Positions 8,223 to 45,438 of a DNA stretch of 64,000 bases are shown in pieces. The stretch lies in NCBI RefSeq assembly GCF_027271155.1, contig NZ_CP114542.1:1116001-1180000 (forward strand). The letters are read 5' to 3'. Both the position numbers and the translations under genes were made by a program. Source of the DNA: Brevundimonas subvibrioides (GTDB taxonomy: Bacteria > Pseudomonadota > Alphaproteobacteria > Caulobacterales > Caulobacteraceae). The notes below the pieces were generated by a model. The model had not been told where the DNA came from, did no database searches, and saw only the letters and a list, made by a program, of their open reading frames with translations. Numbering within the stretch: position 1 is the stretch's first letter; the number at the start of each line of letters is the position of its first letter.

Positions 8223-9572
8223 ATGCGCAACCTGGTCGCCGCCATCGAAGCCATCGATCCCCTCGTCGTCACCGGCAAGGTGGCGGGCGTGTCGGGTCTG
8301 CTGATCGAGGCGAGGGGCGGGCTGTCGCGGCTGGCGGTCGGGGCACGGGCCGAGATCGGTCGCCGGGGCACGACGCCCCTGCCGGCCGAGGTCGTGGGGT
8401 TCCGTGATTCCAAGGCCCTGCTGATGCCGTTCGGCCCGGTCGAAGGCGTGGCGCCGGGGGCCGACATCCACATCATCGGACAGGCGGCCGCTGTCCATCC
8501 GACCACGGCGTGGCTGGGCCGGATCATCGATGCCTTCGGCCAGCCGATCGACGGCAAGGGGCCGCTGCCCCAGGGGCATGCGCCCTATCCGCTGCGCGCC
8601 GCGCCGCCCGCCGCCCATTCACGGGGGAGGGTCGGCGAGCGGCTGGATCTGGGTGTGCGGTCGATGGACGTGTTCACCACGACCTGCCGGGGCCAGCGTC
8701 TGGGCATCTTCGCAGGCTCGGGCGTGGGCAAGTCGGTGCTGCTGTCCATGCTGGCGCGTCAGGCGACCTGTGACGCTGTCGTCGTCGGCCTGATCGGCGA
8801 ACGGGGCCGGGAGGTGCGCGAATTCATCGAGGAGACCCTGGGCGAAGAGGGTCTGCGTCGCGCCATCGTCGTGGTGGCGACGTCGGACGAGCCGGCGCTG
8901 AAGCGGCGTCAGGCAGCCTATATGACCATGGCGATCTCCGAATACCTGCGGGATCAGGATCTGGAGGTGCTGTGCCTGATGGACTCGGTCACCCGCTTCG
9001 CGATGGCCCAGCGCGAGATCGGACTGGCCGCGGGCGAGCCGCCGACGACCAAGGGCTATACGCCCACCGTCTTCTCCGAACTGCCCAAGCTGCTGGAACG
9101 CGCGGGGCCCGGACCGATCCGGCCGGACGGGACGACGGCGGCGCCGATCACGGCCATGTTCACCGTTCTGGTGGACGGCGGCGATCATGACGAGCCGATC
9201 GCCGACGCCGTGCGCGGGATCCTGGACGGGCATATCGTGATGGATCGCAAGATCGCCGAGCGCGGGCGGTTCCCCGCCATCGATGTGTTGAAGTCCGTCA
9301 GCCGGACCCTGCCGGGGTGCCAGACCCTGCCCGAGCGCGAGCTGAACCGGCGGGCGCGTCAGTGCCTGTCGGCCTATGCGTCGATGGAGGAACTGATCAA
9401 GATCGGGGCCTATCGCGCGGGGGCTGACCCGGTCACCGACCGCGCCATCGCCCTGAATCCGGCGCTGGAGGCGTTCCTCGGCCAGGACAAGGAGGACGTC
9501 ACGCGGATGGCCGATTCCTTCAACCGGTTGGAAAGCATTCTGAACCAAGGTCTGGTTCAAGGTGGCGAGTGA
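8223..9572 (+). CDS. fliI: flagellum-specific ATPase of the export apparatus
   Basis: The ATPase of the flagellar type III export gate, which releases chaperones and unfolds export cargo at the cytoplasmic membrane. The 449-residue protein has Walker A GSGVGKS at 165-171, the [10 protein letters not shown] segment, a Walker B ending in CLMDSVTRF, and [19 protein letters not shown], all typical of FliI/SctN rather than F1-beta. Length is normal. The last codons GGC GAG TGA are already the first unit of a heptamer-armed repeat, so the C-terminus (VQGGE) may have been altered by that insertion. fliJ follows after 156 bp on the same strand. Confidence 0.95.
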
Positions 9573-9698
9573 CGAGTGGCGAGTGACGGGTGAAGCGAAG
9601 ACCGGACGCGCATCGCGGACGATGGCTGACGATCAGACCATCGACGCAGTCGCCGGCTCTCTTTCCACTCGCCTCTCGCCTCTCGCCTCTCGCCACTG
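9561..9698. repeat. heptamer-armed hairpin between fliI and fliJ
   Basis: The left arm (9561-9591) is built of AGTGGCG/AGTGACG heptamers starting inside the last fliI codons; the right arm (9663-9698) is a run of CTCGCCT/CTCGCCA heptamers. The arms are imperfectly complementary around a loop of about 70 bases. The element fills most of the fliI-fliJ spacer and would be transcribed as a long stem between the two reading frames. Related copies: 31334-31441, 41897-42017, 42260-42377 and 45309-45438. Confidence 0.75.
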
Positions 9699-9728
9699 GC
9701 CTGATCTCGACAAAGGTATTGTAACCGC

Positions 9729-10139
9729 ATGACCGCCTGGGCCCATTCCCTGATCCGCATCTCCAACTACGAGGTGGAGACCCTGCAGAAGCGCCTGGCC
9801 GAGATCACGTCGAAGAAGGCGTCGGCCGAGATGCGCCTGGCGGTGCTGGACGCCGAGGCCGAGATCGAGCGCGAGCGCGCCCGGATAGATGCCGAGGCCG
9901 CCATCATGCTGCAGGCCTATCTGGCCGGCTGGAAGGCCCGAAAGGGTGCCGCCGAGGGCGATCTGGTCGTCCTGGACGCCGAGGAAGAAGGCGCCCGCGA
10001 CGCCCTGACCGGGGCCTATTCCGAGCTGAAGAAATTCGAACACGTCGCCGAGATGACCCGGCTGAACGCCATCGTCGCCGCCGGCAAGCGCGAGACGGCT
10101 GCGTTCGACGAAATGGGTCTCAGGAAACGTGCGGGCTAA
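9729..10139 (+). CDS. fliJ: flagellar export protein FliJ
   Basis: A 136-residue, almost wholly helical, charged coiled-coil protein (EVETLQKRLAEITSKKASAE and so on), matching FliJ in length and heptad pattern. FliJ is the central stalk of the flagellar export ATPase ring and escorts chaperones. Identification rests mainly on position directly after fliI plus the coiled-coil character, because FliJ sequences diverge strongly. The short start region has no strong Shine-Dalgarno; the 5' side is occupied by the heptamer hairpin, so translation may depend on that structure. Confidence 0.85.
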   Translation: MTAWAHSLIRISNYEVETLQKRLAEITSKKASAEMRLAVLDAEAEIERERARIDAEAAIMLQAYLAGWKARKGAAEGDLVVLDAEEEGARDALTGAYSELKKFEHVAEMTRLNAIVAAGKRETAAFDEMGLRKRAG

Positions 10140-10146
10140 CGCACAC

Positions 10147-10297
10147 CCATCTCCCTCCCCCTGCAGGGGAGGGCAGATCGCGAAGCGATCGGGTGGGGGC
10201 CGCAAGGCGAGACCGCCCAGACCGGAGTCCAGATGGCCTTGTCCTCCCCACCCGGTTTTCGCTTCGCTTCGACCACCCTCCCCCGAGGGGGAGGGAG
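10147..10297. repeat. G/C-rich palindromic repeat, copy 1
   Basis: Starts with a CTCCCTCCCC run facing GGGGAGGG, has inner stems including GCGAAGC and CGCTTCGCTTCG, and ends with CCCTCCCCC facing GGGGGAGGGA. Its terminal purine stretch lies four bases before the ATG of the xylanase gene and acts as its ribosome-binding site. Close relatives are at 42782, 46604 and 49855, a related subtype is at 29736 and 49070, and a shorter in-coding copy is at 43191. Confidence 0.75.
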
Positions 10298-10301
10298 AAG
10301 G

Positions 10302-44207: not shown

Positions 44208-44212
44208 TCGCC

Positions 44213-44313
44213 GAGGCAGTAGGCAGTAGGCAGTAGGCAGTAGGGTTTGGGCGACGACAGGGAGGCCGTGATTGCGGCGTCTACTGCCTACTGCCCAGGC
44301 CCTACTGCCTCCC
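44213..44313. repeat. hairpin with GGCAGTA heptamer arms, between g5 and g6
   Basis: The left arm 44213-44245 holds four consecutive GGCAGTA units; the right arm 44280-44313 holds CTACTGC units in complement. Both ends pair well, with mismatches in the middle. The loop is about 35 bases. It has the same architecture as the AGTGGCG hairpins but a different heptamer, and occupies the spacer starting six bases after the capsid stop. Confidence 0.8.
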
Positions 44314-44336
44314 TTTTCTGACATCGGAGATTTCCC

Positions 44337-44603
44337 ATGACCGCACCCGTGACGCTCACGGAGGCGAAGCTGTTCCTGCGCGTCGGTCACGAGGCCGAGG
44401 ACACGCTGATCCAGACGCTGATCGATGCGGCCACTGCAAGGGTCGAGGGGGAGGTGGGCCTGGGCCTGACCTCGACCTCGGCGGCGCCGCTGAGGCTGGC
44501 GATCCTGATGCTGGCCCTGCGCGCCTATGAGCGTGGGGAACAGGAGATGTCGATCCGCCCGGTGGAGGCCTGGATCGCGCCCTATCGCGTGGTGCGGCTG
44601 TGA
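44337..44603 (+). CDS. GTA head-tail connector, HK97 gp6-like, g6
   Basis: An 88-residue protein of the gp6-like head-tail connector family: VTLTEAKLFLRVGHEAEDTLIQTLIDAATARVEGEVG and LRLAILMLALRAYERGE. It is the adaptor ring below the portal. Length and position match RcGTA g6. The stop overlaps the GTG start of g7 by four bases (GTGA). Confidence 0.88.
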   Translation: MTAPVTLTEAKLFLRVGHEAEDTLIQTLIDAATARVEGEVGLGLTSTSAAPLRLAILMLALRAYERGEQEMSIRPVEAWIAPYRVVRL

Positions 44604-44911
44604 GCGGGTTCAGGGTCCTGGCCAGCCTGCTGGATCCGGTGGAGGCGGAGACGCCCTATGGCGGGCGGGCGATTTCATATCAGCCTCTGGGGTCGGTCTG
44701 GCTGAGGCTGGAGGCGCGACGGCGGCGGCAGACGACGGAGGCCGGGGTGACCGCAGCGACCGAGGTGGCGACGGCCGTGATGCGGACCGATCCGAGGCTG
44801 GCCGAGGGGCGGGTCATCCGGTTCGGCGGGGCCGACTGGACGATCGCAGCGGTCGATGCGGACCCGGACCGGCCGGGGCGGACGCGGGTGAGCCTGGAGC
44901 GCAGTCGATGA
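44600..44911 (+). CDS. GTA head-tail closure/stopper protein, g7
   Basis: A 103-residue protein of the phage head-completion (SPP1 gp16-like) family: DPVEAETPYGGRAISYQPLGSVWLRLEAR and MRTDPRLAEGRVIRFGGADWTIAAVDADPDRPGRTRVSLER. The GTG start overlaps g6 and the stop overlaps g8 (ATGA), giving a tightly coupled trio. It forms the stopper ring between adaptor and tail. Confidence 0.88.
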   Translation: MSGFRVLASLLDPVEAETPYGGRAISYQPLGSVWLRLEARRRRQTTEAGVTAATEVATAVMRTDPRLAEGRVIRFGGADWTIAAVDADPDRPGRTRVSLERSR

Positions 44912-45321
44912 GAGATCATGAGGGGGCGCTGCAGAAGGCGCTGATCGGACACCTCCGGGCAGACACGGCGGTTCGGGCCTTGCTGGGGGACCCGGCCAGG
45001 GTCTGGGACGAGGCACCGGGAGAGGCGGTCTGGCCGTGGCTGGCGATCGGACGGTCCGAAAGTCGGCCGGTGGCGGCGGACGGGTGCGGGGTGGAGCATA
45101 CGCTGAGCCTGCGCTGTGCCTCGCGGTTTCCCGGGACAGAAGAGGCCCGGGCCGTGCTGGCGGCCGTGCGGGCGGCGCTGCACGACGTGACGCTGGAGGC
45201 GGACGGGGTCCGCACCGTGTCGATCCGCGCGACCTATGCCGAGGTGTTCCGGTCGCATGACCAGAAGCGGGTCTGGGGCGTCGTGCGGGTGCGGGCGGTG
45301 ACGGAAGAGAGTGGCGAGTGA
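44908..45321 (+). CDS. GTA tail terminator, DUF3168 family, g8
   Basis: A 137-residue DUF3168 protein: HEGALQKALIGHLRADTAVRALLGDPARVWDEAP, WPWLAIGRSESRPV, HTLSLRCASRFPGTEEARAVLAAVRAALHD. The family caps the tail tube at the head end. The C-terminus EESGE-stop is encoded by the first units of the heptamer-armed hairpin at 45309, so the native end was probably replaced or extended by insertion. Confidence 0.88.
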   Translation: MRDHEGALQKALIGHLRADTAVRALLGDPARVWDEAPGEAVWPWLAIGRSESRPVAADGCGVEHTLSLRCASRFPGTEEARAVLAAVRAALHDVTLEADGVRTVSIRATYAEVFRSHDQKRVWGVVRVRAVTEESGE

Positions 45322-45438
45322 TCAGTGGCGAGTGGCGAGCGGGCCGGTGCTGGCGTCGCGAACGAGGGCAGTGAGACGGGCCTGTCTCACGGAAATTACC
45401 TGATCCACTCGCCACTCGCCACTGATCACTCATCACTG
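45309..45438. repeat. heptamer-armed hairpin between g8 and g9
   Basis: The best-preserved copy: 45318-45339 and 45408-45429 are perfectly complementary over 22 bases, each with AGTGGCG heptamers. The 68-base loop contains its own perfect 7-bp hairpin (GTGAGAC / GTCTCAC, 45371-45390). The left arm starts within the last g8 codons; the right arm ends 13 bases before the g9 ATG, next to GAGGAG. Confidence 0.85.

Follow-up and report, generated by a model that had tools for sequence, protein, structure and literature searches.

Exchangeable hairpins built from inverted heptamer arrays at gene junctions of Brevundimonas subvibrioides

A 64,000-nt window of the Brevundimonas subvibrioides genome (positions 1116001-1180000 of its single 2.97 Mb contig; genome G000) contains dispersed hairpin elements in which a tandem array of a seven-base unit is followed, after a loop, by an inverted array of the same unit. 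The comparison with relatives has revealed that, even in ribosomal-protein operons, such intercistronic hairpins are exchanged for unrelated ones while the place past the stop codon stays constant. This suggests, as far as sequence can tell, that at intercistronic junctions the fold is kept and the sequence is free to be swapped. The reading favoured here, to which a rough probability of 0.42 is given, is that the elements would be stem-loops at cistron 3' ends, swapped as whole hairpins, altered by heptamer slippage and exerting on the mRNA an effect like that proposed for repetitive extragenic palindromic (REP) sequences. The following six elements, several of them in a cluster resembling a gene transfer agent (GTA) or phage, were located in the window:

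9561..9697, AGTGGCG-type inverted heptamer pair at the junction of fliI (PF00006/PF18269) and fliJ (PF02050, below the Pfam cut-off).
31334..31438, AGTGGCG inverted heptamer pair inside an ABC-F-like gene (31094-32944, minus strand), in the interval between the second ABC domain and the C-terminal domain.
41897..42016, AGTGGCG inverted heptamer pair past the stop of the portal gene (PF04860) of the GTA/phage-like cluster.
42262..42379, AGTGGCG inverted pair with a short second arm, at the junction of a 75-aa open reading frame (ORF, no Pfam match) and the prohead protease gene (PF04586).
44213..44311, AGGCAGT inverted heptamer pair, of a second heptamer family, past the capsid gene (PF05065).
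45309..45439, AGTGGCG inverted heptamer pair at the junction of the gp17-like gene (PF11367) and the tail tube gene (PF06199).

The five AGTGGCG copies had been claimed by a first-pass annotation of the window, and all of them were found in place and folding far below shuffled sequences, with RNA folding z values of -4.6 (9561), -7.4 (31334), -11.7 (41897), -3.8 (42262, where the second arm is only about 12 nt) and -8.5 (45309); none of 200 shuffles folded equally well (0/200). The AGGCAGT copy, which that annotation did not name, has a z of -6.4. The annotation was also right in placing four copies between genes and one inside a gene, the exception being 31334, but several arrays overlap coding ends. 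Thus, the stop codon of fliI is a TGA within the first array of the 9561 element, that of the gp17-like gene is a TGA within an array of the 45309 element, and the second arm at 42262-42379 falls in the initial codons of the protease gene according to our own gene call. The portal, protease, capsid and tail genes were identified by family search, and the label GTA was taken from recognised sequence. No T-run follows five of the six elements, the copy at 44213-44311 being followed by CCTTTTCTGA (by eye), and a terminator scan of 41000-46500, which allowed loops of 3-8 only, gave no site at an element. No Rfam 15 family matched in the window at gathering scores.

The position relative to genes was analysed with a catalogue of arrays in the genome, comprising 36 rows (23 pairs and 13 single arrays), with genes called by a simple codon-model caller of our own. 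Nineteen of the 23 pairs are located between co-directional genes, two inside genes, one at a divergent and one at a convergent junction; the co-directional share of all junctions in those stretches is 151/219. Measured from where the upstream stop codon ends, the first arm in the 19 co-directional pairs begins at -19 to +19 nt, with a median of 3; the gap that separates the second arm from the following start has a median of 26 nt. The host junctions include fliI-fliJ and the portal-ORF, capsid and tail junctions of the GTA-like cluster, together with those that we take, from recognised sequence, to be ruvA-ruvB, rpmD-rplO and rpoA-rplQ; the names thiC, mutL and those of the spc/alpha operon genes are assumed on the same basis. 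Both position and context fit a putative intercistronic mRNA structure.

A genome-wide search with AGTGGCGAGTGGCGAGTG (up to 2 mismatches) gave 83 matches in 2.97 Mb, against 0 for the reversed control, which were grouped manually into 21 AGTGGCG sites, 16 with arrays on both strands and 5 on one, so that further copies are indeed present beyond the window. AGGCAGT arrays (up to 3 mismatches) gave 48 matches against 1 for the reversed control, grouped manually into 12 sites with the window copy included, and the two heptamers therefore coexist in one genome. One gene stretch with an identical internal heptamer array was found twice in opposite orientations, at 649926 and 2898883 of the contig (L033 and L046).

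Among 398 genomes of the order, 22 matched a 20-base AGTGGCG array pattern; all but one belong to the own genus, a count of 21 that includes the own genome. A 16-base pattern matched 67 of the 131 genus genomes. In a named genome collection the paired pattern matched 55 stretches, of which 44 are labelled Brevundimonas or Caulobacteraceae, 4 carry a wider proteobacterial or no lineage label and 7 are of Planctomycetota, Bacteroidota or Flavobacteriales type; these labels are as deposited, and the stretches, being fetched with a G-first heptamer pattern, are uninformative on polarity or period. One label, Kuenenia (L165), is doubtful because the G+C content of 61% is far above the value expected for that genus. 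The main heptamer is largely confined to a single genus, Brevundimonas by the named matches. The units found in the genus are AGTGGCG, AGGCAGT, GTGGCTG, AGGGCTT and GAGGGTC, and GGTGATT and GGGAGTG were found in named loci; AGTGGCG and AGGCAGT carry GG only, with no G3 tract, whereas GAGGGTC and AGGGCTT of relatives carry GGG. Long heptamer arrays were also observed on plasmids of Isosphaera, Photobacterium, Nostoc and Eleftheria (L243-L246; 4 of 7 records), with the units CCCCACT, TCGCCAA, ACTCAGC-like and CGGGCCA; in three of the four they lie near annotated genes, the Photobacterium record being almost unannotated. In IMG/VR, 16 contigs hold a heptamer pair. Several have flanks like those of the GTA-like cluster of the window, and another four (L215, L216, L218 and L220), the ones with ORFs inspected, resemble GTA clusters by eye; transport by phages was rejected on this basis.

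The GTA-like junctions were compared in 15 relatives, although not every junction was found in every relative, and the occupancy is a non-random sample because the stretches were fetched for their orthology to elements. Some junctions are empty (7-26 nt), some have the same heptamer and the rest have other hairpins, which are either pairs of GTGGCTG, GAGGGTC or AGGGCTT or else long palindromes (CCCTCTCCC type and TCCCTCCCCC type). At the 41897 junction, one relative (G120) has a TGATG stop-start overlap and no hairpin. In the sister genome G079, with flanks 93-97% identical at four GTA junctions, the AGGCAGT element at 44213 is common to both genomes, and unrelated palindromes are present at 41897, 42262 and 45309. 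The 31334 element is present in G079 too, the only genome compared there. At the junctions examined, therefore, and for 31334 in G079 only, the arms are not ordinary coding or spacer sequence conserved in orthologues. The AGTGGCG sequence, which the first-pass annotation took as the element, has turned out to be exchangeable itself.

A second class of dispersed long palindromes, with arms of the TCCCTCCCCC...GGGGGAGGG type (about 19-23 nt per end) and inner GGTGGGGGCGGC stems in several copies, was observed at 42784-42918, 46604-46750 and 49858-50001 of the window and also in L091 and L094; in relatives they stand at junctions that otherwise carry heptamer pairs. The window also contains a 77-bp unit in two tandem copies (48297-48450, 92% matching, starting TCCCCGCTTTCGCGGGGA) and a 31-nt inverted repeat, TCCCGGAAATCGCGGCAGCGATTATCCGGGA (47317-47455, 94% complementary), which is found in G079 too. 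In G120 an insertion of about 19 kb (1243200-1262400 of contig C1) splits the GTA-like cluster, its fragments being adjacent in the window.

Hairpin replacement was also followed in the spc/alpha operon, fetched by orthology from 40 relatives. Of its 12 junctions, seven measure 1-38 nt in almost every genome, although secY-adk has 63-101 nt in three. The junctions rpmD-rplO, rplO-secY, rpsK-rpoA and rpoA-rplQ span 85-263 nt throughout, and adk-rpsM is larger still. At rpoA-rplQ, inspection by eye showed related sequences of about 100 nt with two hairpins in 39 of 41 genomes, those of G041 and G035 diverging most. G000 and G079 (stretches L044 and L120) have an AGTGGCG hairpin instead, bordered by the short flanks of the other genomes, of which the 3' one is AGGAGAGACC. 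The minimum free energy of the heptamer hairpin is -51.8, compared to -39.8 (G120) and -38.5 (G046) for the native sequence, and its folding z values are -5.1 and -5.5; no Rfam 15 family matched over the L044 element at E<=0.1.

The native rpoA-rplQ sequence (L121-L159) has two hairpins with a fixed outer sequence and inner stems that vary strongly and are complementary by eye; RNAalifold on an automatic alignment gave 13 pairs, 4 of them changed on both sides. The junction was in no Rfam match listed for L121, L143 and L151, and the sequence is a candidate ribosomal-protein leader.

At rpmD-rplO, a leader directly 5' of rplO (GCCGAGTC..GCGCTAG.ACCCGAAAGGATCAGGCAC) is kept in 40 of 40 genomes, and the hairpin preceding it is of at least five kinds: AGTGGCG, AGGGCTT, GTGAGC, a long palindrome and others, most of which are an older stem resembling a terminator. 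On a tree built from nine genes of 38 genomes, without G084 (stretch too short) and G101 and G041 (genes missing), at least 14 changes of the five hairpin labels are required, the labels being assigned from rough patterns and "other" (20 genomes) covering 17 with the older stem and 3 different ones (G120, G102 and G025). Shuffled labels need 16.9 changes on average, and the labels are therefore partly clustered by kinship. Every kind of hairpin at this junction outperforms shuffled sequence in folding, the median z per class being -5.6 to -9.2, with single values from -2.4 to -11.8. Five of the 7 genomes with AGTGGCG here have retained the older stem's T-rich tract 3' of the new stem, as if one stem had been exchanged for another. 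The terminator-like stem with its T-rich tract, which lies inside a ribosomal operon in 17 of 38 genomes, is itself a candidate attenuator.

The scan for tandem arrays (periods 2-15, complementary arrays up to 250 bases apart) revealed that 18 of the 20 inverted pairs, in both scans together, have a period of seven: 7 of 7 in 285 kb of synteny from four genomes, and 11 of 13 in 469 kb from 49 stretches of other relatives, where the rest are GC-rich periods 3 and 6 and one of the 11 is formed by arrays from two adjacent elements. No inverted array pair was found in 240 kb from other genera. With a looser setting, all 29 period-7 pairs of Brevundimonas stretches have the G-rich array first and the C-rich array second (reverse order 0), a count that includes orthologous copies and corresponds to about a dozen distinct combinations of junction and heptamer. 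This looser census, limited to periods 4-11, gave one pair at period 11 and none at 4, 5, 6, 8, 9 or 10. In the own genome 16 of 16 two-strand AGTGGCG clusters are G-first; the array catalogue pairs arrays in plus-then-minus order only and is no test of polarity. As a hairpin forms equally well in either arm order, the polarity needs a separate explanation.

One such explanation, which we consider quite unlikely, involves Rho, a factor that prefers C-rich, G-poor RNA for loading. The G-first order would be selected because a C-rich, G-poor array emerging first would be a Rho loading site, and the hairpins would insulate operons. The 29 censused pairs and the 16 clusters, G-first without exception, and the co-directional setting of most pairs agree with this proposal; however, the C-rich arrays are short, about 20-35 nt.

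The loops of the 23 catalogued pairs are unrelated to each other and to the other stretches of the own genome that were compared (only self matches and one 15-nt match were obtained). For one loop the search covered the whole genome and gave neither a second copy nor a donor. The arms change by whole units: an IMG/VR contig (L225) holds the 41897 element with arms 14 and 7 nt shorter (two and one heptamers) and one loop difference, and in G079 the arms of the 9561 element are likewise 14 and 7 nt (two and one heptamers) shorter. The two arms thus behave as independent arrays of one unit, which argues against both compensatory selection and arm-to-arm copying. Compensatory evolution of the arms was rejected since in 88 pairs the variants in register are in no excess over shuffled arms, and linked arm lengths were rejected for lack of correlation, though the same differences, 14 and 7 nt, were found in each of the two single comparisons.

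These features bear directly on the chief rival to the favoured reading, which appears doubtful to us, namely that the arrays are neutral heptamer microsatellites: the polymerase would slip by seven bases, arrays would survive where harmless, and pairing would be a functionless by-product. The dominance of period 7, the heptamer arrays on the Isosphaera, Photobacterium, Nostoc and Eleftheria plasmids, the whole-unit indels and the lack of arm covariation in sequence or length are consistent with slippage, and a position near the stop would also be expected from sparing the downstream start. Nevertheless, slippage makes no second inverted array about 20-75 nt away, always G-first, and conserved resident sequences are replaced, not merely accompanied. 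Moreover, the loops are absent from empty orthologous sites, so that more than an array has been added.

Dispersed copies, inverted arms, gene-adjacent insertion and differences in presence between close relatives would also be expected of a mobile element moved in trans by a transposase acting on the hairpin, like REP doublets (REPIN) or miniature inverted-repeat transposable elements (MITE). This alternative is nonetheless very unlikely. The loops are unrelated, one of them having no second genomic copy, the ends have no fixed sequence beyond the heptamer, and different heptamers occur in one genome. The Y1 transposase associated with REP sequences (RAYT) is present in 4 of 131 genus genomes and was not found in the own genome, the search being limited to this transposase family, and mobilisation by a REP/RAYT system was rejected for the own genome. 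Of the "mobile or copied" element put forward in the first-pass annotation, mobility through a known transposition system is not supported, and copying is supported in part only, by the many copies, the unrelated loops, the occupied and empty junctions and the hairpin replacement. No target-site duplication was seen by eye at the GTA and rpoA-rplQ junctions, where no systematic search was made.

Telomerase extends the 3' ends of eukaryotic chromosomes with repeats, and a comparable origin has been considered for the arrays, although we give it only a faint chance. Breaks would occur at hairpins or short junctions, both 3' ends would gain G-rich heptamers, by telomere-like addition or by copying from a single-stranded C-rich template, and the ends would be joined through filler. 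Such break healing predicts G-first polarity on both strands, one unit per element with arms nonetheless independent in length and variants, and unrelated loops with loss of the native sequence at the site, as at rpoA-rplQ, all in one step. No enzyme for it was found, however. Ku, present in 106 of 131 genus genomes, is absent from both G000 and G079, and Ku-dependent joining was therefore rejected as a requirement; the RVT_1 reverse transcriptase family, present in only 35 of 131 (28 over the family cut-off) and in G000, is absent from the heptamer-rich G079, G087 and G110, and a telomerase-like RVT_1 was likewise rejected as a requirement. The one loop searched genome-wide had no donor elsewhere. 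If break healing were true, the paired arrays would be traces of an undescribed bacterial end-healing activity adding seven-base units, of which the Xanthomonas and planctomycete-labelled pairs would perhaps also be traces, and hairpin-for-hairpin replacement would be its signature.

The mean heptamer load is 8.2 in genomes without Ku and 4.4 in those with Ku (Mann-Whitney p 0.049), and a load of at least 8 was found in 11 of 25 and 18 of 106 genomes, respectively (Fisher p 0.006), both values being uncorrected for kinship; nothing is drawn from this difference. The RVT_1 gene of the own genome (723723-724358 of the contig, L034) lies about 1.7 kb from the AGTGGCG pair inside the thiC-like gene, probably by chance.

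Position, replacement and fold together support the favoured reading of stem-loops at cistron 3' ends, from which we infer the following function and course of events. The element is a whole hairpin of about 55-150 bp, with two convergent G-first heptamer arrays around a filler loop. It would arrive as a unit at a short gene junction, directly past the upstream stop codon, or replace a resident hairpin. Replication slippage would later alter the arrays, mostly in steps of whole heptamers and separately in the two arms. Transcribed as one RNA, the stable stem past the stop codon would most likely shield or delimit the upstream cistron against 3'-5' decay and leave the downstream ribosome binding site free. 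If the fold is what matters, as proposed, unrelated hairpins can replace one another.

Several observations weigh against this reading. Five loci, namely 31334, those in the thiC-like gene and in mutL, and the two in a duplicated gene, are located within genes, and of the 36 catalogue rows 13 consist of one array, which in some cases is half of a degenerate pair. In the two genomes tested, the native rpoA-rplQ sequence shows no folding beyond that of shuffled sequence (z -0.5 and -1.6), so that "hairpin for hairpin" at this junction rests on the shared layout of the native sequence rather than on folding energy. Some GTA junctions are empty in relatives, and the hairpin is therefore dispensable there. 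Variant bases common to both arms in register number 31, against a null of 28.4 (standard deviation 4.0; 88 pairs), and arm lengths are uncorrelated (rho -0.05 in the 88 pairs; rho 0.27, p 0.31 in 16 own-genome pairs); exact pairing is thus not visibly maintained, which argues against tight selection. Finally, a hairpin requirement alone does not explain the G-first order or the dominance of period 7, and these call for a mechanism beyond slippage and hairpin selection. The exchange of hairpins provides natural swap experiments on the role of intercistronic stems, and what could pass for a heptamer microsatellite curiosity becomes a testable evolutionary pattern.

The convergent heptamer-pair architecture is not new, being known from Xanthomonas. 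Rehm et al. 2015 (PMC4692102) describe GGGAATC heptamers with 70 (Xcc) and 75 (Xac) convergent pairs, located near stop codons and varying in unit number between relatives, for which no function was found, and only a few pairs in a Nostoc set. The likeness to the Xanthomonas repeats includes an exact seven-base unit, an intergenic location near the upstream stop and convergent pairs (16 of 21 AGTGGCG sites here). The Xanthomonas unit described there carries G3 runs and was studied as a G-quadruplex, whereas the main units here have GG only; in Brevundimonas, in addition, two heptamers coexist in one genome, relatives use several more at these junctions, and the pairs take the place of other hairpins.

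Intergenic DNA of cyanobacteria also holds tandem repeats with a seven-base unit, the short tandemly repeated repetitive (STRR) sequences. The arrays described here resemble these and the TAACTGA repeats of Beggiatoaceae (PMC4679880), which are of the same kind.

REP sequences, bacterial interspersed mosaic elements (BIME) and REPIN with their RAYT are dispersed intergenic inverted repeats, many of them in operons, and have been proposed to act on mRNA. The Brevundimonas hairpins share the dispersed intergenic inverted repeats and the frequent location in operons, but they have no fixed palindrome or tag and no RAYT/Y1, their arms are tandem arrays and the heptamer varies. MITE have a related interior and target-site duplications; the loops here are unrelated, and no target duplication was seen by eye at the GTA and rpoA-rplQ junctions.

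Among the matches listed in the open-licence literature, where few queries named these taxa, there was no report of paired heptamers in Brevundimonas or Caulobacterales. As far as that literature shows, three aspects are new: different heptamers are used at a single junction, heptamer pairs and unrelated hairpins are exchanged for one another in ribosomal operons, and period and polarity have been counted. The proposed working analogue is the protective hairpin of the malE-malF type, described in PMC5927463, which deals with differential decay by intercistronic structures in Escherichia coli. In both cases a stem-loop lies past the upstream cistron inside an operon; the sequence origin and the heptamer arms of the Brevundimonas elements are unlike those hairpins, and by analogy with them an effect on mRNA decay would be expected here.

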